Positions 7,364-60,455 of a stretch of DNA of 60,455 nt are shown here, one piece after another. Position 1 is the stretch's first letter; every line of letters begins with the position of its first letter. The DNA is taken from positions 1 through 60,455 of the forward strand of contig JAFGPX010000288.1 in the NCBI GenBank assembly GCA_016935975.1, given 5' to 3'. The stretch is from Deltaproteobacteria bacterium (GTDB lineage: Bacteria; Myxococcota_A; Polyangia; Fen-1088). Under the pieces are notes generated by a model. It ran no database searches. It saw only the letters and a list, made by a program, of their open reading frames with translations, and was not told the DNA's origin. The position numbers were made by a program, and so were the translations under genes.

Positions 7364-9820
7364 ATGAATAGCGCGAAAAATCGCCACGCCAGACGTCGCC
7401 AGCGGGACCGCGGCGCGGTCCTCATGGTGGTTCTCATCGTCGTGGTCGCTCTGCTGGGGCTGGGGATGACCGGCCTGTTTCTCACCAGCGGCAGCATCCA
7501 GATGAACACCAACATCAATCTGCGCAACCAGGCCCTGGTGGTGGCCGAGGCCGGCATCGAGCGAGCGCGCGGCATTCTCAACCACCGGGTTCTCGCCGAC
7601 CCGAGCTGGGTTCCTCCCGTGCCGGGCATGCTTGCCGCCTTTGGCAGTCCGACGAGCTACGACGAGATACCCAACCACAAAGACTACTGCAGAGGCGAGG
7701 CCCGCGGCGCCATCCTGGTGGACAGGTTCTCCCCGTCCTGCCAAGCCACCGAGTGCCCGCTTCGGGACGTCCCCTTCCCCTCCTTGGATCGGACCGCGGA
7801 TCTGCCCAGCACCGACATGACGGTCTCCCGACCGACCATGGGCAACTACACCGTGTACATCCGCCAGGATCCGGGCGATTGCCGCATGGGTAATTTCACG
7901 TGCGAGCGCGCCGTGACGACCGCGGTGCTCACCGACACGGACACGACATGCGACCCGCCTTCCGGGCTGCCGCCTCCGAACGGCTCGCTCGTGGTGCGCT
8001 CGGAAGGCGTGGCTGCCGACGGCAAGACGCGGGTCGTGCTCGAGGTGACCATGACCCCCGCCCTGGGCGCCGCGCAGGCGGCCAACGTTCCCCTGTCGGC
8101 CCTGTGCGCCGCGGGCGCGGCCGGCTGCGACGACAACGCCATGGTCCAAAGCGGCATCGTGGTCAACAGCAGCAACCCGCAGACTCCCCCGCCGCCCCCC
8201 ACCAGCACCAGCTCCGGCACCAGCACCAGCTCGGGCACCGACACCAGCTCGGGCACCGACACCAGCTCCGGCACCGACACCAGCTCGGGCACCAGCACCA
8301 GCTCGGGCACCAGCACCAGCTCCGGCACCACCACCGGCGGCGGCACCAGCACCACGACCAGCAGCAGCACCAGCACCAGCACCGCGACCTCGACCGCGAC
8401 CTCCACTTCGACGAGCACGAGCACCAGCACGAGCACCAGCACGAGCACCAGCACGGACACCAATAGCTGCATGCAGCATGGCTGCGCCCACGTCGGCGTT
8501 CTCGGGGAGTACGGGATCTGGGATCCGAACTTCAAGTCGGACATGTTTGTCAACTGGCTCCACACCCACTTTCCCGAATGCTCGGAGGAAGGGCAGAAGC
8601 TGCAGTACCAGTCGCCCAGCGGCAGCAGGTGGCACAACGGCAAGGACATGAAGATCACGCCGAAACGCCTCAAGTACTACTCGGCGCTCATCCTGCTCGA
8701 CATGCACCACACGCCGAACGACTTCATCAACTGCACCAAGACCAGCAACTTCCAGGCCTGCCTGGACAATCGCTGCTACCGCCCGAGCGGCAACAAGGAT
8801 CTCTGTTTCGCTCAGCCGGCCAACCAGAGCACCAGCACGGCCAGCAGCACGGATCCCTTCGTCGTTTCCGGGTGTCCGAAGACGGCGACCATCACCAACG
8901 CCACGGTAACGAAGCAATACACGTGGACCGGAACCCACACCGGCATCGCGGCCGCGGTGGACTTCTACGGCGTGACCCGTACCGGCACGGCAACCTACAC
9001 CCAGGGCGTCACGGGAACCGGGGTCTCCACCGGCGTGACCGTCCACGTCGATTGCACAACCAATCCGAGCGACCGGCTCACCTCCTACAACGCCAGCACC
9101 GGCCGCAAGCTCGACCCCGACGAGATCTCGTACCTGCAAACCTGGATCAAGGAGGGCCACGGTCTGGTCACGGTCTCAAGCTTCTTCTACAACGCGCCCG
9201 AGGTCGAGAACGTCAACAAGATCCTCGACGGCTTCGGTCTGAAATACGCAACCAAAGACCAGGCCGGCCACATCCCCACGGTGCTCGACGGCATCTGGGG
9301 CACCTACGATTCCGGCCTCAACCCCGTCGCCAGCGGCACATTGTACGAAGGCGGCGCCGACGTTGGTCAAGCCTACGACGACTGGGGCAATACCTTCAAC
9401 AACAACGTCGAGCCCCTCTTCCACCAGGAATCCGGCGGATACTCGCAGAAGGTCAATCGCCTCCAGGTCAGGTCCGGCGTGCCCATCGTCACCACCGCGT
9501 ATACCCCGGGAAGCGGCTGGGATACCCACATGCCCGCGAGCTGCGTCATCACGGCGAAGCAGCAATGTCCGCTGCCCAAGACCATGTCCACCTGCACACC
9601 AACGACCACGGTCCCGTGCGCGTGGGTAAGCGGCCTTTGGGCCTGCATGGGCGCGGTGGTCGACGGAGGACTGGCCGTCAATGGCCGCGTGGTCGTGTGG
9701 GCGGACGAATGGTTGACCTACGACCACGTCTGGAACAGCGCCAATGCCCGCGACGGGTGCTGGCAAGCCGAGACCTTCTGGGAAAACGTGGTGCGCTGGA
9801 ACAGCAATATCTGCAAGTAG
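7364..9820 (+). CDS. Giant PilX-like protein with Thr/Ser stalk and large C-terminal domain
   Basis: The protein has 818 residues in three parts. Residues 1-50 are a basic N-terminus and a hydrophobic helix ([20 protein letters not shown]), as in PilX. Residues 50-275 form a PilX-type periplasmic region with Cys pairs. Residues about 276-366 are almost only Thr, Ser, Gly and Asp, built from a six-residue tandem repeat. Residues about 370-818 form a Cys-rich domain whose blocks [29 protein letters not shown] and [10 protein letters not shown] resemble a class I glutamine-amidotransferase-like (flavodoxin-like) fold; this fold assignment is tentative. PilX proteins are normally about 200 residues. 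No PilY1 gene is seen in the window, so this protein may act as the pilus-tip factor. That role is inference. Confidence 0.75.
8201..8459 (+). repeat. Tandem repeat encoding a Thr/Ser stalk
   Basis: About eight 18-bp units of the type ACCAGCTCSGGCACCRRC encode GTSTSS or GTDTSS. They run into a region of 6-bp ACSAGC units encoding Ser-Thr. The array is in frame inside the PilX-like gene and separates the pilin part from the C-terminal domain. Near-identical units make length variation by slippage likely. Thr/Ser density suggests an extended and possibly glycosylated linker. Confidence 0.9.
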
Positions 9821-9824
9821 CTAG

Positions 9825-11303
9825 CTATCTCGGCTCGTTCGCGCCTGCGGGGATCGGGGCCGTGCCGGGCGCCCCGGCCGCGGGCGCCGTCCCGGGCGTG
9901 GGAGTGGGAGGCGCGGCCCCGGGAGTCACGGGTACCGCGGTTCCCGGCGCGGGAACCACGGCCCCTGGCCCGGGAACCAGGGCCCCTGGCGCGAGAGCCC
10001 GCGCTGTGGCCGTGGCGGCGGGCGTGGCCGGTGTGGGGACGGCTGGAGCCGGGGGCGTTGCCGCCGGCGGCGCGGGCACGGCTGGAGCCGGGAGCGTTGC
10101 CGCCGGCGGCGCGGGCACGACCGGAGCCGGGGGCGTTGCCGCCGGCGGCGCGGGCACGGCCGGAGGTGGCGCTGGCACGGCCGGAGGTGGCGCAGGGGCC
10201 GGCGGCGGGGGGGGCGGGGGCGCGGGCGGCGTCGCGACCGGCGGCACGGCCGCGGGCGGCGGCGGGGCCGGCACGGGCGGCGGCGCTCGGACAGGCGAAG
10301 GCGGGGGCGCGGCGCGGATCGGTGGGACGGGCTTGGCGGGCGGCGTGGTGGCGAGGAAGGGCGAGGTCTTGAGCCAATGCACGTTGCCCATTCTGGCGAA
10401 GGTGCCGCTCGCGCGAAAACCGACGAAGCCGTCGGGGCGTTTGCCCATCTGCGCCGTCAAATCCATGATGGTGCGCAGCTTCTCCGAGCTGCGCAGCAGG
10501 TTGTCGCTCAGCTTGAAGCGAACGTAGAGATCGACGCGCGAAGTGGAGAGGGGCTGTGCCAGGTGGATCTCGCCCTCGACGGTCGCTTCCAGATCCGGCG
10601 ACTTGAACTGCACGCCTTGCAGGCGGCCGACGCCCTTGTCGACGACGATCTTGCCCGAGTTGTCACCCAGGCGCATCCTGGGCAACCCCAGACCCTCGGC
10701 CAACAGGGGATGGCTGGCGATCACCAGTTTCGCCTTGCCGTCGCCCAACACGCAGGCGTCGCAGGACCAGTCGAGCGTGCCCTTGGCCTCGGACGGCCGC
10801 TTCTTGGGCAGCTTCAGGTTCAGCTTGACGTCTAGCCTACCGGAAGCCGGAAGGTTCGTGGCGTTCTTGAGCCAGGGAATCTCGGCCAGGTCGACTTCCG
10901 CGGCGGCGATCTGGGCCGAGGAATCCTCCTTGCCCGTCTTGATCTTGGCGCCGACCTCGCCCCCGAAGACGTCCATCGACACGCTGAAGGAGCGAGTGCC
11001 GAAGACATAGGACAGAAGCGACCAGCCCAGCGTGGCCTTGTCGACGATGATGCGCGTGGGCTTGCCGCCACTGGCCGAGGGCGCGACCAGGATGATTTCC
11101 TCCAGCGCCATGCCCAACCCCAACGAGGGTCCGGCGTGCTTCGCCTCCATCTGGTAGCCGGCGGCGGCGAGACGGCCGGCCAGACTGTCCCTGAACCGCT
11201 CGTAGGGCAAAGACAGGTAGAAGACGACGCCAAAGACGAACAGGCCGAAGCCGATCATCGCGGCGACCTTGCCCAGCCGGCGGATGCGATCGCTCGTGAC
11301 CAT
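9825..11303 (-). CDS. gspN: Type II secretion protein N with long Pro/Ala-rich tail
   Basis: The protein has 492 residues. An N-terminal membrane anchor (about 12-32) is followed by a GspN-type beta-rich periplasmic domain, with strings such as GGEVGAKIKTG and EIPWLKNATNLP typical of the family. From about residue 325 the protein is a run of roughly 165 residues of Pro, Ala and Val, which is unusual for GspN (normally about 250-300 residues). It is the last gene of the T2SS operon. The stop lies 4 bp from the stop of the convergent PilX-like gene, with no terminator between. GspN is accessory in the systems where it has been studied. Confidence 0.85.
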   Translation of the reverse strand: MVTSDRIRRLGKVAAMIGFGLFVFGVVFYLSLPYERFRDSLAGRLAAAGYQMEAKHAGPSLGLGMALEEIILVAPSASGGKPTRIIVDKATLGWSLLSYVFGTRSFSVSMDVFGGEVGAKIKTGKEDSSAQIAAAEVDLAEIPWLKNATNLPASGRLDVKLNLKLPKKRPSEAKGTLDWSCDACVLGDGKAKLVIASHPLLAEGLGLPRMRLGDNSGKIVVDKGVGRLQGVQFKSPDLEATVEGEIHLAQPLSTSRVDLYVRFKLSDNLLRSSEKLRTIMDLTAQMGKRPDGFVGFRASGTFARMGNVHWLKTSPFLATTPPAKPVPPIRAAPPPSPVRAPPPVPAPPPPAAVPPVATPPAPPPPPPPAPAPPPAVPAPPPAVPAPPAATPPAPVVPAPPAATLPAPAVPAPPAATPPAPAVPTPATPAATATARALAPGALVPGPGAVVPAPGTAVPVTPGAAPPTPTPGTAPAAGAPGTAPIPAGANEPR

Positions 11304-24559: not shown

Positions 24560-24600
24560 AGGAGAGAGCGCAGAGGGGCAGGAGGACTCAAAGCAAAATT

Positions 24601-24726
24601 CACCACAGAGGACACGGAGGCCGCAGAGGCCGGAAGAGGAAGGGGTTTTCCGGATCTGGATCCGATCTCTCCCATCCTCCTTTGTCTCCGTGTCCTCCGT
24701 GTCTTCTGCGGCGAATTCTTCCACAG
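24601..24726. repeat. Dispersed palindromic repeat, copy B
   Basis: The left arm CACAGAGGACACGGAG (24604-24619) pairs with CTCCGTGTCCTCCGTG (24686-24701) with one mismatch. The centre contains CCGGATCTGGATCCGA, matching copies A and C. A second set of arms of the same family flanks it, so this looks like one copy nested in another. It would fold into a long hairpin on either strand. Confidence 0.8.
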
Positions 24727-51786: not shown

Positions 51787-52250
51787 GTCATCGCTCCGGC
51801 ACGTCTGCGCAGCGCCCTTTCCAACATTGCCGGGAGCACCGGCTCATCGCCAGTCCCTTGCCCCCATGGGCCGCGCCAGTTTCACGACAGAATAGCGAAC
51901 CTTCCACCTCGGCCGTTCGGACGAGTCCTGACCCCTACCATGGTAGGGGGGAGCCGCTCGGTTGACCGCATCGGGCTTCCCGACTCTAGCGGGCGTGCTC
52001 ATTCCATCGATCAGAGGCGGCCCCCAGTTTTCAGTTGTAGGGAAAAGAAACCTCGTCCGGGTGTCGAACCGCGCAGAAGGTCCAGCCAGAATGATGAACC
52101 CCGCCCGCAAGCCGGTCAAGACAGCGGGGCGGCTTTGACCGCCGAGCTGCCCCGCGCCTACAATGGCGTCGTGGACAAGGACGACACGACGGATACCGCT
52201 GCGTCCGCAGCCCGGCTTCGCTCGCGGCGTCGGGCGCGTAGGGGCGTCGC
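51787..52250. other. Intergenic region, no gene seen, with an 18-bp palindrome
   Basis: Between the divergent membrane-protein and methyltransferase genes I see no convincing coding sequence. CCCCTACCATGGTAGGGG (51933-51950) is a perfect palindrome. A relatively AT-rich patch (CCCAGTTTTCAGTTGTAGGG, around 52022-52041) could include a promoter, but no clear -35/-10 pair stands out. A short open frame (51940-52254) has the composition of random GC-rich DNA. Confidence 0.6.
51933..51950. repeat. Perfect 18-bp palindrome
   Basis: CCCCTACCATGGTAGGGG reads the same on both strands with no loop. It sits upstream of both divergent genes, which suits a dimeric repressor or activator site better than a terminator. 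Confidence 0.6.
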
Positions 52251-54259: not shown

Positions 54260-55363
54260 CTATTCCAAGCGCCGCCCCGCCTCCTCGGCAAGGGCCAGAC
54301 AGGAGGTGAGACCGGGAGAGTCGATGCCGAAGAGATTGAGCAGGCCCGGCACCTTGTGCGCCTCCGATCCCTGCAGCACGAAATCGACGAAACCCGAGCC
54401 CTCGGGCGCCAGCTTGGAGCGCACGCCCACGAAGCCCGGCGCGAGCGCGCCCTCCGCCAGGCCAGGGTAGTAGCAGCGAATTGCGCCATAGAAATGGGCG
54501 GCGCGACTCTCGTCGAACTCGTAGTCGGGAAAAGAGGTGAAGCACACGTCCGGCCCGAAGCGCAGGTTGCCGCCGAGATCGAGCGCGACGTGGATGCCGA
54601 GGCCGTCCTTGCCCGGCACGGGATAGATGAGCCTCCGGAAGGGCGACGGGCCGGACACCGTGAAGTAGTGGCCCCGGGCGAAATAGGGTGTGGGGATGGT
54701 CTCGGTCGGCAGGCCGCGCAGCGAGCGCGCCACGGCGGGGGCCCCGAAGCCCGCGCTGTTCACCACGGTCCGAAAACGAAACCGGCCGGGTTCGCGTCCG
54801 CCGATGTCGAGATCGATGCCGTCGTCCGCGACCTCGCCGCTCACGACCGGACTGGCGAGCACGATATCGGCGCCGGCCCGACGGGCATCGGCCGCCAAGG
54901 CCTGCATCAGGCCGTGGCTGTCGACCAGTCCGGTCGAGGGCGAAGACAGGGCTCGCGCGCAGGTCACCGCGGGCTCGAGAGCGCGGACCTGCTCTCGGTC
55001 GAGCCAGGCCAGATCGTCGACCCCGTTGGCCTCCCCGTGCGCCTTGTGCTGTTCCAGTTGCGCGATCTCGTCCTCGGTCACCGCAACGACCAGCTTGCCG
55101 ACGCGCCGACACGGAATGCCGTGCTCGCCGCAGTAGCTGGCCAGCATGCGCCGTCCCGCGACGCATAGCCGCGCCTTGAGCGTCCCGGACGGGTAGTAGA
55201 TGCCCGCGTGCATGACTTCCGAGTTGCGCGAGCTGGCGTGCTGGCCCGTGCGCTTCTCGGCCTCGAACAACACCACCTGCCGGCCGCTCAAGGCCAGCCG
55301 GCGAGCGATGGCCAGCCCCACCACGCCGCCGCCGATGACCGCGCAGTCGAGTCGTTCCGTCAT
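54260..55363 (-). CDS. FAD-dependent L-2-hydroxyglutarate oxidase-like enzyme
   Basis: The protein has 367 residues. The N-terminal dinucleotide fold is CAVIGGGVVGLAIARRLA, with the FAD ribose Glu at the end of VVLFEAE. SSRNSEVMHAGIYYPSGTLK is the signature of the LhgO/L2HGDH group of the DAO family. The C-terminal FGIDSPGLTSCLALAEE also fits. The enzyme oxidises L-2-hydroxyglutarate to 2-oxoglutarate. It has no signal peptide and is likely cytoplasmic or membrane-associated. The gene lies alone 79 bp after the GH5 gene. Confidence 0.9.
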   Translation of the reverse strand: MTERLDCAVIGGGVVGLAIARRLALSGRQVVLFEAEKRTGQHASSRNSEVMHAGIYYPSGTLKARLCVAGRRMLASYCGEHGIPCRRVGKLVVAVTEDEIAQLEQHKAHGEANGVDDLAWLDREQVRALEPAVTCARALSSPSTGLVDSHGLMQALAADARRAGADIVLASPVVSGEVADDGIDLDIGGREPGRFRFRTVVNSAGFGAPAVARSLRGLPTETIPTPYFARGHYFTVSGPSPFRRLIYPVPGKDGLGIHVALDLGGNLRFGPDVCFTSFPDYEFDESRAAHFYGAIRCYYPGLAEGALAPGFVGVRSKLAPEGSGFVDFVLQGSEAHKVPGLLNLFGIDSPGLTSCLALAEEAGRRLE

Positions 55364-55441
55364 GGGGCCTGCAACCTAGCAAGGCCGCGCGCACACCGCC
55401 AATGGCACGGTTCAAGCGCGGCGCGAGGTACGAACAGCATG

Positions 55442-55556
55442 CACCCCAGAGGACACGGAGGTCGCAAAGGCCGGAAGAGACCGGGACCCGGGTCCGAACC
55501 CTTCCCTTCCTTCTTCGACTCCGTGCCCTCTGGATCCTCTGTGGCGAAGGATTCGG
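55442..55556. repeat. Dispersed palindromic repeat, copy C
   Basis: The left arm CCAGAGGACACGGAG (55446-55460) pairs with CTCCGTGCCCTCTGG (55519-55533) with one mismatch. The centre has GGCCGGAAGAGACCGGGACC and a GGGTCCGA element like copies A and B. It ends in CTCTGTGGCGAAGG. It fills the gap between the end of the amidohydrolase remnant and the start of the flavoenzyme gene. Confidence 0.8.
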
Positions 55557-55586
55557 AAGACGCCACGCATGCGAGGCATCGGCGCC

Positions 55587-56744
55587 CTACGGAGCGGCCG
55601 GCGGTGGGTTGTCCTCCATGGGATCGACGACGGGGACGGTGACCTTGCGGGCGAAGATGAGCTTGTCGGCGTTTTCGTAGTAGAGCTTGCGCAGAACCTG
55701 TGGCGGCAGGTGGATGGCGTTGACCTTCCAGCGCCCCTGGATGGGCGTCGGGTGGTCGATGTTCTTCCGATCCGTCTCGAAGAAGCGGAAGTGCGCCTCT
55801 TAGAACTTGACCGCGTCTTCGAAGCCGACCGGCGTTTCCGAGACAGAGCCGAGTTGCCAATAGTCGGGACCGATGGCCAGGTCGGTGCCGAACAGAATAC
55901 GGTCCTGGAACTTGATGAAGAAGCGCCGCAGCTTCTCCACGGGGTGACGGCCGAACTCCGGCACGCGCGCCGAGGTGTCCAGGTACACGTTGGGATGGGC
56001 GTCGAGCAGCTTCTCCATGAAGCCGATGTCCTCGGCCATCCCCAGGTGAATGAACAGGAAGGTCGTGTCGGGATGGCGGCTCACCAGCCGCTCGGTCTGC
56101 TTCCACAGCTCCAGCAAGGGCGGGTAGTCCTGGCCGAAAAAGCTCCAATCGGGCGCCAGTTGCAGCTCGTCCCAGCGCTCGTTTTGCGGCGTGGGCGGCT
56201 CGAAGAAGGCCTTGGGATCGCCGACATGAATCGCCACGACGGCGTTCAACTTCGCGGCCGTGGCCATGATGGGAGCGAAGCGGGCGTCGTCGATGCGAAT
56301 GAGCTTCTCGTCGGCATCGCGCGCGCCCAATCCCATGGCCTTGAAGAACTTGATGCCCTTGGCGCCGAACCCGACCTCGCGCGCGAAACGCTCGGCCTCG
56401 AAGTCGCCCCAGCCCGACTCCTCGACGCGCGCCCAGGAAACGTTGGCGAAAAACTCGAAGCGCTCTTTGAGCCGGTGCTTGATGTGCAGCGTGGCCGCAA
56501 AGACGCGCGAGCCCAGGAAACCGCCGTTCTTGTTGCAGAACTTCACCACGCCCACGCGCTCGAAAAGCTTGAGGGCGGTGTCGATCGTCTCATCGAGCGG
56601 CGAGATGAGAGTGTGCGAATCGATCACCGGACCGCGGGCGGCCGGAGCCGGCGGTAGATTGGCCGGGCGCGGTTGATGCTTCCGGCACGCGGCCGCGGCA
56701 ACGAGACAAAGCACAAGGCAAAGCAGGCGGACTGGCGCGACCAT
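55587..56744 (-). pseudogene. Amidohydrolase-like lipoprotein interrupted by an in-frame stop
   Basis: The frame starts at 56744 with a lipoprotein signal (VAAAAC) and runs 314 residues to a TAA at 55800-55802. The same frame then continues for 70 residues (EAHFRFFETDRKNIDHPTPI, ending PPPAAP) to TAG at 55587-55589. The part after the stop is conserved-looking amidohydrolase C-terminus, so the TAA probably replaces a Tyr codon. The body has AIHVGDP, LFIHLGMAED and LFGTDLAIGP metal-site segments. The first metal motif, normally HxH, reads DSHTLI and lacks the second His. The gene may be dead, read through, or affected by a base-call error. Confidence 0.75.
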
Positions 56745-56851
56745 GGCCCCTAGTCTAGTTGAATTGGCCTGCCGCCGGCCACAAGATGAAGAGGCAAGCC
56801 GTCACATTCGGAGGCATGATAGGGGCCCTCCTAGATCCGAGGAGTCTACCC

Positions 56852-58237
56852 ATGAAGAACCCACTGCTCGTTCCCGAACTACGCGACATGATCGCCGACA
56901 ATCGCGTCGAGGATCTTCGCGCCTTCTGCACCAGCACCTCGCCAGATGTCGTCGCCGAGTTCCTGGGCGCGCTGACCGCCGCCGAGCTTGCCGAGGTGCT
57001 GGGGCTCGTGGAAAGCCCCGAGCGCGCCGCGATATTCGCCAATCTGGACGACGACGCTCGCCTCGCGCTCATCGACATCCTCGACAAGGAGGTCGCCTCG
57101 GACCTCATGGCGGCCATGCCGGAAGAGGCCAGGATGGGGTTCCTGGAAAGGCTATCCGATGAACAGCAGGCCAAGATGCGCGCCATCTTCGAGCAGGCCC
57201 CTCCCGAGGAAGCACGTCCTCTACTCGAGACACTGGAGGAGGTCATCGAGAAACCCGAGCCGGGAGAGATGACGGCGGAGGAGATCGCCAGCGAGGTGGC
57301 CGAGCACCTGGAGTGCTTTCGCGTCGCGGGCGGCCGGGTCGAGCGCATCGCGCACATCGAACGGGGCTGCTGGGTCAACATCGTCGAACCGACCAAGGAG
57401 AACCTGCCGCTCATCGCCGAGCACTTCAAGATCCCGCTCGACTTCCTGTCCGCCTCGCTGGATATCGACGAGACGGCGCGCATCGAGGTGGACGAGGGCG
57501 CCACGCTGTTCATCGTCAAGGCGCCCTACTTCGACGAGAGCAACGTCGACGTCCTCTACTTCACGATTCCCATCGGCATCATCCTGGCCAACGGCATCAC
57601 CATCACCGTCTGCTCCAAACCGCAGAGCGTGCTGCGCGCCTTCATGGACAACCAGGTGCGCAATCCGGCCGGCGGCCACCGCTTCATCCTGCAGATCATC
57701 TTCCGTTCCACCCTGCTCTTCCTGCAGCACCTCAAGCAGCTCAACAACGCGGCCAGCGTCATCCAGAAGAAGCTCGAGCAGGAGTCGCGCAATCAGCAGC
57801 TCATCAAGTTGTTCAACATCGAAAAGAGCCTCGTGTACTTCACGACCTCCTTGAAGAGCAACCTGCTCATGCTCGATCGCCTCCGCCGCCTGCGCGGCTT
57901 CGAGCTCAACGAGGAAAACGAAGATCTGCTCGAGGACACCCTCACGGAATGCAAGCAGGCCATCGAGATGGCCAACATCTACAGCGACATCCTGAGCGGC
58001 ATGATGGACGCCTTCGCCTCGGTGATCTCGAACAACCTCAACATCGTCATGCGACTTCTGACCTCCATCACCATCGTCATCACCATTCCCGTCTTGGTAA
58101 CCGGCTTCTTCGGTATGAACGTGGAGTTGCCGCTCGAGAAAGAGCCGTACGCCTTCCTGGCCATCCTCGGCCTGTGCGCGGCGCTCGGCCTGGGCGCCGT
58201 CGCCTACTTCCAACGCAAGCGTTGGCTGGAACCTTGA
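56852..58237 (+). CDS. MgtE_N-CorA fusion, divalent-metal transporter
   Basis: The ATG at 56852 follows GAGGAG by 7 nt and gives 461 residues. Residues about 8-125 form the helical MgtE N-terminal domain (VVAEFLGALTAAELAEVL, LIDILDKEVASDLMAAMPEE), normally a gate of MgtE channels. Residues about 150-461 are a CorA protein with its cytoplasmic funnel, a long stalk helix, and the two C-terminal membrane helices with the selectivity motif GMN in GFFGMNVELP. CorA proteins form pentameric Mg2+ (or Co2+/Ni2+) channels. The fusion would give a CorA pore a Mg-sensing arm taken from an unrelated channel family. Acidic residues after GMN (ELPLEKEP) vary from the usual MPEL. Confidence 0.88.
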   Translation: MKNPLLVPELRDMIADNRVEDLRAFCTSTSPDVVAEFLGALTAAELAEVLGLVESPERAAIFANLDDDARLALIDILDKEVASDLMAAMPEEARMGFLERLSDEQQAKMRAIFEQAPPEEARPLLETLEEVIEKPEPGEMTAEEIASEVAEHLECFRVAGGRVERIAHIERGCWVNIVEPTKENLPLIAEHFKIPLDFLSASLDIDETARIEVDEGATLFIVKAPYFDESNVDVLYFTIPIGIILANGITITVCSKPQSVLRAFMDNQVRNPAGGHRFILQIIFRSTLLFLQHLKQLNNAASVIQKKLEQESRNQQLIKLFNIEKSLVYFTTSLKSNLLMLDRLRRLRGFELNEENEDLLEDTLTECKQAIEMANIYSDILSGMMDAFASVISNNLNIVMRLLTSITIVITIPVLVTGFFGMNVELPLEKEPYAFLAILGLCAALGLGAVAYFQRKRWLEP

Positions 58238-58274: not shown

Positions 58275-59489
58275 GTGCCCGATTTCGACGTCCTGGTCGT
58301 AGGTGCCGGCCCCGCCGGCGCCGCTTGTGCGAAGAGCTGCGTGCAAGCCGGCCTGCGCACCCTGCTCGTGGAGCGGCGGCCCCTGCCACGTTCCAAACCG
58401 TGCTCCGGCCTCGTCGCCCTGGAGGCGGAGCGCTTCGTCACGAAGCATTTCGGCCCCCTGCCGGCCGCTTGCCGCAGCCGTTCGGGCGACTACACGGGCA
58501 TCGCGCTGCACTTCGCGAGCGTGCCGTCCCTCTTCGTGCCCGGCCGGTGCAAGGCCGCCAACGTCTGGCGGCACTCCTTCGATCATTTCCTGGTCGAGCG
58601 CAGCGGGGCCGAGGTGCGCGATGGCACCCGCTGCGCGGCGGTCGAGGAGATCCCGGCGGGCGTCGCGGCCCGTCTATGCGACCGGCCAGGGCAACAAAGC
58701 CGCGTGACCGCGCGCTACCTGGTCGCGTGCGACGGCGGCTACTCGAAGGTCGTCGCTGTCGTCGCTCCCGAGGTGTACCGCCAGACGGCCTGGGCCCTGG
58801 TCTACCAGCGCTACTACCGCGGCCGCATCGAACTCGACCCCGGGCCCTACCACACCTTCCTTGCGCGCGGCATGGGTATCTACACATGGGTCACCTTCAA
58901 GGACGACTTCATCATCGTCGGCTGTGGCTGCATGCGCGGCGACCGCATCGGCGGCTACCACCGCCGCTTCGTCGAGCACCTGCGCTCCCGCTTCGGCTTC
59001 GAGCCCAAGGAGAGCCTGCGCGACGAGGGCTGCCTGGGCAACGCGCTCGGCCCGACCAACCGTTTCTTTCTCGGCAAGGGCCGCGTGCTGGTGGCGGGCG
59101 AGGCAGCCGGCTTTCTGCACTTGGGCGGCGAGGGCATCTCGGCCGCGCTCGCGACGGGCTACCTCGCGGGGCAGGCCGTCGTCTCGGCCATCGCCGAGGG
59201 ACGCGATGCCCTGACCTGCTACCTGGCCGCGACGCGCCACGAGCGCGAGCGGGTGCTCGACCAGTGGAGCTTCACGCGCCTGTTCCGCTCGTTTGCCCAC
59301 CCCCTGGCCCTCGGGGCGGCATTCGCGCGCTATCCGTGGCGCCACTATCCGGGCCTGGTACGCGACACCTATCGCTTCCTCGATCAAGAGGGGCGCGGCA
59401 GCGGCGTGGGCGCGGCCATGGTTCGCAACTCCTGGCAGCGTCTGTGGAGCCGGCGCCGCTACAGCGTCGGCGAGGTGGAGCAGGAATAG
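58275..59489 (+). CDS. Geranylgeranyl-reductase-family FAD oxidoreductase
   Basis: The protein has 404 residues from a GTG at 58275 with a GGAGA site 7 nt upstream. The FAD fold DVLVVGAGPAGAACAKSC is followed by PRSKPCSGLVALEA, a family hallmark, and the second FAD motif VLVAGEAAGFLHLGGEGISA. Members reduce isoprenoid chains or oxidise other lipophilic compounds. The protein is soluble or peripheral. It follows the CorA-fusion gene by 37 bp, but no isoprenoid or carotenoid pathway gene adjoins, except perhaps the partial protein at the right edge. Confidence 0.85.
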   Translation: MPDFDVLVVGAGPAGAACAKSCVQAGLRTLLVERRPLPRSKPCSGLVALEAERFVTKHFGPLPAACRSRSGDYTGIALHFASVPSLFVPGRCKAANVWRHSFDHFLVERSGAEVRDGTRCAAVEEIPAGVAARLCDRPGQQSRVTARYLVACDGGYSKVVAVVAPEVYRQTAWALVYQRYYRGRIELDPGPYHTFLARGMGIYTWVTFKDDFIIVGCGCMRGDRIGGYHRRFVEHLRSRFGFEPKESLRDEGCLGNALGPTNRFFLGKGRVLVAGEAAGFLHLGGEGISAALATGYLAGQAVVSAIAEGRDALTCYLAATRHERERVLDQWSFTRLFRSFAHPLALGAAFARYPWRHYPGLVRDTYRFLDQEGRGSGVGAAMVRNSWQRLWSRRRYSVGEVEQE

Positions 59490-60230: not shown

Positions 60231-60455
60231 TCATGGCGCCGGCTTGCCGGATTGCGGTGTTGGGGTTTCTCTCCGGAGCTTCCGGTCGAGCAGAATGCGG
60301 TTGTAGCGCTGGGTCACCATGCAAGGAAGGTTCACCAGGGCGCCGAAGGCCACCATCACCGCCGCGGCCCAGGGCGGGTTTATGAGAAGAAAGAGCGGCG
60401 CATGCGCCAGCATCACCAGGTGCGCCAGCTCCGCCCGAACGGTCTCCACCCGGAA
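60231..60455 (-). CDS. C-terminal part of a small membrane protein, acyltransferase-like (partial)
   Basis: The frame is open to the right edge of the window, so the N-terminus is missing. The 74 visible residues include a hydrophobic pair of helices and ALVNLPCMVTQRYNRILL. The NLPC..xQRYNR pattern resembles the end of glycosyl-4,4'-diaponeurosporenoate acyltransferase (CrtO-like) proteins. If right, a carotenoid-related gene lies just beyond this window, next to the geranylgeranyl-reductase-like enzyme. Recognition rests on one motif. Confidence 0.55.
   Translation of the reverse strand, partial: FRVETVRAELAHLVMLAHAPLFLLINPPWAAAVMVAFGALVNLPCMVTQRYNRILLDRKLRRETPTPQSGKPAP

Follow-up and report, generated by a model that had tools for sequence, protein, structure and literature searches.

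What does the cytosolic domain of one Mg2+ channel family do when it is carried by a channel of another? MgtE and CorA are unrelated families of Mg2+ channels, the latter pentameric. The window analyzed here, a stretch of 60,455 nucleotides forming one contig of a deltaproteobacterial draft genome, carries a gene whose product joins an MgtE_N-type domain to a CorA channel, representing a domain exchange between these two families. The job of the N domain within MgtE is disputed (PMC3435302), and a natural CorA carrier that has neither CBS domains nor a plug helix and has lost most Mg2+ ligands isolates the domain from the rest of the MgtE machinery. Such a fusion would let the mechanical effect of the MgtE N domain on a channel be tested alone.

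Domain architecture of the fusion protein

The gene and its parts are as follows.

56852-58237, plus strand: MgtE_N-CorA fusion gene, 461 residues, stop codon included (open reading frame, Pfam, and homology to three other fusions from this ATG)
56840-56844, plus strand: AGGAG ribosome-binding site, 7 bases upstream of the ATG at 56852
56861-57247, plus strand: MgtE_N-type all-helical domain, residues 4-132 (Pfam match at residues 31-128, 56942-57235; profiles and models)
57248-57307, plus strand: linker, residues 133-152 (model and conservation across fusions)
57308-58036, plus strand: CorA cytosolic alpha/beta domain and stalk helices, residues 153-395 (Pfam and model)
58037-58111, plus strand: first transmembrane helix, about residues 396-420 (hydropathy and model)
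58112-58120, plus strand: GMN motif, residues 421-423 (sequence and alignment of fusions)
58145-58216, plus strand: second transmembrane helix, about residues 432-455 (hydropathy and model)

A longer reading from a TTG codon (492 amino acids) is unneeded, because GGAGTC stands upstream of the ATG in all four fusion genes known to us and homology with the other fusions starts at ATG 56852.

The preliminary description of this locus had read an MgtE_N-type domain in front of a complete CorA with GMN, and had named a profile search of the N-terminal part as the check on that reading. The search supports the domain: PF03448 (MgtE_N) matches residues 31-128 with an E value of 8.8e-10 and 39.5 bits against a curated cut-off of 25.9, and PF01544 (CorA) matches residues 172-455 with an E value of 1.2e-53 and 182.7 bits against a cut-off of 27. 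A trace mgtE match in NCBIfam covers residues 12-109 (E 0.0096), while Pfam gives no match to CBS domains or to the MgtE pore domain (PF01769) anywhere in the protein. A profile built from two fusions also finds solved MgtE cytosolic domains (8gpv, E 9.4e-11; 2oux, E 9.1e-4).

Fold comparison agrees. Modeled alone from two sequences, the N domain reaches a pLDDT of 88.2 and a pTM of 0.78, and the first four Foldseek ranks of this model are MgtE chains (E 9.8e-4 to 1.8e-2), with the top row alone, 8gpv at 9.8e-4, below 0.001. By VIA-align the six best rows are again MgtE (Z 11.1 to 15.4; 8gpv 15.4, 2oux 13.0, and 2yvy 12.0, these three sharing the helical fold at 12 to 22% identity) and FliG comes next (10.6), but for helical repeats a Z value below about 13 can be of little significance, a caution that spares no more than the first one or two rows, so that the fold evidence rests chiefly on 8gpv. 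The Pfam and sequence-profile support is independent of this caveat. By its model, the N domain best resembles the N domains of MgtE. The whole-chain model (13 sequences; pLDDT 81.5, pTM only 0.53) has helices from residue 4 to 132, low confidence at 133-138, a short helix at 142-150, and then the CorA part, and its best Foldseek matches are the CorA proteins of Methanocaldococcus jannaschii and Thermotoga. The linker is thus predicted to be a flexible, proline-rich stretch (pLDDT below 50 at 133-138) followed by a short helix that is conserved in the alignment.

The CorA half shows the hallmark of its family, two C-terminal transmembrane helices with GMN in between, and its stalk and first transmembrane helix contain long invariant runs across the four fusions. 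The NCBIfam equivalog for the magnesium/cobalt transporter CorA (TIGR00383) is not reached (122 bits against a cut-off of 200.75). By profile score, the fusion protein is a member of the wide CorA/2-TM-GxN family outside that equivalog. The best solved match is M. jannaschii CorA (4ev6 and 4cy4), over residues 171-459 by sequence and over the whole model by fold. Like the fusion, it has GMN, an LPL-type loop, and two transmembrane helices; unlike the fusion, it consists of the CorA part only, without MgtE_N, and identity in the structural alignment is about 26%. Among the homologues compared, the closest unfused CorA is annotated as "magnesium transporter CorA family protein" on plasmids of Listeria and Peptoclostridium, with about 45% identity over the CorA part. 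It has no N-terminal domain, and the annotated genes start 6 to 9 codons before the CorA match.

The loop after GMN had been taken for an unusual form that might alter ion choice. We rejected this suggestion, since the loop has the form common among relatives with GMN. Of 36 unfused homologues, 20 have GMN near their end and 16 have no GMN there; a hydrophobic residue and a proline follow shortly after the motif in 16 of the 20, and the M. jannaschii loop (GMN-FSYLPLANNP) is similar. Some of the homologues differ at the motif itself. SMN replaces GMN in 11 of them (L017, L018, L051, L062, and L073-L079; for example, AFSMNV), GGMS without Asn is found in four (L054, L063, L080, and L081), and one has GSN (L084). 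The 15 homologues with SMN or GGMS form one side of the CorA tree, and ion choice may differ there.

Is the CorA half gated by a known Mg2+ site? In our reading of the alignment, D253 of the Thermotoga CorA Mg2+ site corresponds to D362, invariant in all four fusions, and D89 corresponds to A201. With no acidic counterpart of D89, the CorA sensor would therefore not be the Thermotoga one. M. jannaschii CorA likewise has no acid at that position, and its regulatory Mg2+ is believed to sit on an acidic surface between protomers (PMC4579555).

Distribution and descent of the fusion

The same architecture recurs outside the window's genome. A full-length homologue with 64% identity is encoded by Anaeromyxobacter sp. 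RBG_16_69_14, and a search of 317 genomes of the window's class with the N-domain profile yielded two further fusions, both from genus g294 of family f11, which share 58% identity with the window protein across residues 1-460. The profile has matches in 124 of the 317 genomes. Loci of 30 of these 124 were read. Apart from the window's and those of the two new fusions, all 27 are ordinary MgtE without a CorA part, and no diverged fusion was found among them. With a full-length profile at E 1e-25, no further fusion appeared in 377 genomes of the window's phylum, a sample that includes the window's genome and in which scoring was limited to four candidates per genome and a diverged fusion could therefore escape. 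Nor was any fusion other than the Anaeromyxobacter one found in 145 genomes of that organism's order (E 1e-25) or 195 genomes of its phylum (E 1e-30); the three sets overlap in part. A scan of 84,980 species genomes by exact peptide seeds is confined to close relatives and missed the g294 fusions. Across the genomes searched, the fusion is rare. In the parts of the literature that our search covered (InterPro domain architectures lay outside its scope), no published report of an MgtE_N-CorA fusion was found.

In a tree of 40 CorA domains, restricted to homologues whose matches have an E value no higher than 1e-20 and span more than 200 residues, with weaker ones excluded, the four fusions form one clade with support of 100/99. 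The larger group around this clade also contains CorA proteins from Bacteroidota and Bacillota, along with unfused CorA encoded in genomes of the window's class. The N domain was apparently gained once in the fusion line, and the fusion is conserved in at least three lineages.

Could the fusion be an artefact of assembly or binning? The genome is a draft in 341 contigs, and two genomes of the same genus (G001 and G002) have no N-domain profile match at E 1e-5. The two genes flanking the fusion gene, identified by reading their translations, bear on this point.

55800-56744, minus strand: amidohydrolase-like gene
58275-59489, plus strand: FAD-dependent oxidoreductase-like gene

Stretches of both genes have 79 to 84% DNA identity to G001 and G002, lying there on another contig in each case, and both genomes encode a protein with 80% identity to the product of the gene at 54260-55363. 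Because the genes on either side are this similar in same-genus genomes, the contig is native. The same architecture in three other assemblies, with the CorA parts of all four in one clade, led us to reject an assembly chimera, and an artefact of any such kind is highly improbable. Nothing in the G001 and G002 stretches examined beside the flanking-gene matches matches the fusion segment. Either the window's line gained the fusion or these sisters, whose genomes are only 74% and 84% complete, lost it.

How strongly is the N domain constrained? Between the window and Anaeromyxobacter proteins, identity is 43.9% over the MgtE_N Pfam match versus 76.8% in the CorA cytosolic part, and a simple count gives dN/dS of about 0.36 for the N domain and about 0.24 for the CorA part. 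The faster divergence of the N domain, together with the rarity of the fusion among the genomes searched, would fit a neutral passenger, that is, a domain joined once and merely tolerated since. This is improbable, given that the domain is intact in three lineages, that 10 of the first 11 residues are invariant in the four fusions (M-K/R-NPLLVPELR), and that its dN/dS lies far enough below 1 to suggest purifying selection. The near-invariant start, the dN/dS value, and the conserved helix just before the CorA part together suggest that the N domain matters to the protein.

The window's genome and that of Anaeromyxobacter sp. RBG_16_69_14 seem to belong to different phyla of the classification used, because the former is absent from the profile search of the latter's phylum, a set not marked as a sample. 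Synonymous divergence between the two CorA parts is about 0.69 by simple count and unsaturated. For two distant lineages this would suggest horizontal transfer, an inference weakened by strong codon bias (third-position GC of 0.92). Spread by viruses or plasmids was considered and rejected: a scan of viral contigs found no relative, and among 105 plasmid records none has a place covering 80% of the query, with the N domain alone unmatched. The viral contigs likewise provided no additional MgtE N domains for the structure alignment.

Mg2+ ligands and the likely role of the N domain

In Thermus MgtE, the N-domain Mg2+ ligands are E59 (Mg7), D91 (Mg4), and D95 (Mg6); through Mg4 and Mg7 the domain is connected to the plug helix or CBS domain, and it participates in Mg2+-dependent closure (PMC5882242). 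Among 11 MgtE N domains compared (four solved and seven from relatives, two of the latter near-identical), position 59 is acidic in all, position 91 is Asp in all, and position 95 is Asp in nine; a further MgtE stretch, L069, fell to the alignment filter and does not enter these counts. The four fusions have A/Q/L/L at position 59, E/D/E/E at 91, and G/K/A/A at 95, as read from the MgtE alignment for the window and Anaeromyxobacter proteins and in the columns of the four-fusion alignment for the g294 pair. Beyond its N domain, MgtE itself carries CBS domains, a plug helix, and an MgtE pore, none of which is matched in the fusion, where two of the three ligands are missing as well. Judged by these residues, the MgtE-style Mg2+ sensor is not conserved, because none of the four fusions has an acid at the E59 or D95 position and neither CBS domains nor an MgtE pore is matched.

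These residues decide how much of the original proposal, the sensing part of one family combined with the pore of the other, can stand. The protein is a true hybrid of two families, conserved in at least three lineages and apparently under purifying selection, whereas a transfer of the MgtE mode of Mg2+ sensing along with the domain is not supported. The fusion is real, conserved, and rare in the genomes searched, and with most of the known sensor residues lost it is less dramatic than a sensor on a foreign pore. A modified form of that proposal would have MgtE_N and new acidic residues of the linker or CorA part bind Mg2+ and close the pore when cytosolic Mg2+ is high. The acidic D91 position is consistent with it, as are the part of the MgtE N domain in Mg2+-dependent closure and several acidic positions that are invariant across the four fusions (for example, E9, E36, E45, E54, D66, E99, E104, E143, E144, and E148). 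Against the loss of the other two ligands and of any CBS match, we regard such a transplanted sensor as unlikely; even in MgtE, two studies that deleted the N domain came out opposed, one with a channel that was more open and the other with a channel that was less active (PMC3435302).

MgtE_N also occurs away from Mg2+ channels. It is an ARM-like assembly domain, forming rings and dimers, in FlgY, FlbB, and MotE of the flagellar E-ring (PMC13023049 and PMC11870540), which are motor proteins and not channels like the fusion, and the domain is therefore not tied to Mg2+. From this ring and dimer role, and from FliG as the next structural neighbor after MgtE, it might be argued that the ARM-like domain recruits a cytosolic protein, such as a Mg2+ user or a protease adaptor, with little effect on gating. 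A partner of this kind might be expected beside the gene, yet among open reading frames of at least 120 amino acids compared at E 1e-8, the flanks of the window, Anaeromyxobacter, and g294 fusions share no gene other than the fusion itself, except within the g294 pair. Recruitment thus remains a rather doubtful alternative.

We favor, with a probability of about 0.6, a self-gated CorA Mg2+ channel in which the ARM-like domain serves as an accessory or clamp that modulates opening or assembly without the Mg2+ bridges of MgtE. The protein would be a CorA-type pentamer that relies mainly on its own CorA cytosolic domain for gating, in a line that apparently once gained the MgtE-type helical domain on a flexible tether. 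Each N domain would most likely dock on the CorA cytosolic funnel, a neighboring N domain, or a partner protein, and docking would shift the ease with which the channel opens or assembles. Five such domains tethered under the funnel could contact one another or CorA, as MgtE_N does in flagellar rings, and so bias opening or assembly. Mg2+ as the substrate, the pentameric state, docking, and modulation are all features that we infer. The accessory-domain reading agrees with the Pfam, PDB sequence, and fold matches of both halves and with the differing gene neighbors outside the g294 pair. The lower conservation of the N domain relative to the CorA part counts against it and would fit a loosely constrained passenger. 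Other points against it are the whole-chain pTM of only 0.53, the lack of an acidic counterpart of Thermotoga D89, and a score below the TIGR00383 cut-off. Residues 8-128 also carry a surplus of acids (27 D/E versus 11 K/R), although most of the compared MgtE rows do as well.

Mg2+ uptake and genomic surroundings

Profile searches of the window's genome, which is 94.19% complete, return one CorA match and one MgtE_N match, both of them the fusion gene; the MgtE pore (PF01769) has no match, and the P-type ATPase matches to the MgtA model all stay below its threshold. This makes the fusion a probable main route of Mg2+ uptake in this organism, as the sole CorA match in a nearly complete genome with no MgtE pore or MgtA match over the cut-off. 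The Anaeromyxobacter genome has a second CorA-like match besides its fusion. More speculatively, the five N domains may form a ring or clamp under the CorA funnel that sets opening independently of MgtE's Mg2+ bridges, which would make MgtE_N a transferable gating module, here on the sole housekeeping Mg2+ uptake system; we put this forward tentatively.

No Rfam family, and so no Mg2+ riboswitch, reaches its gathering score near the gene. The sole Rfam match over the gathering score in the window is a 6S RNA (RF00013) at 51897-52082 on the minus strand (54.9 bits, gathering score 46.4). A dispersed repeat of about 110 bases lies at 55439-55559 and 24598-24715, with many more copies in this genome and in other genomes of its family. 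Tandem repeats at 8128-8493 (mostly in an 18-base register) and 10003-10275 (about 39 bases) possibly encode low-complexity protein repeats. The last 29 bases of the window (60427-60455) are identical to the start of another contig of the same genome (C13), and the two contigs probably adjoin.
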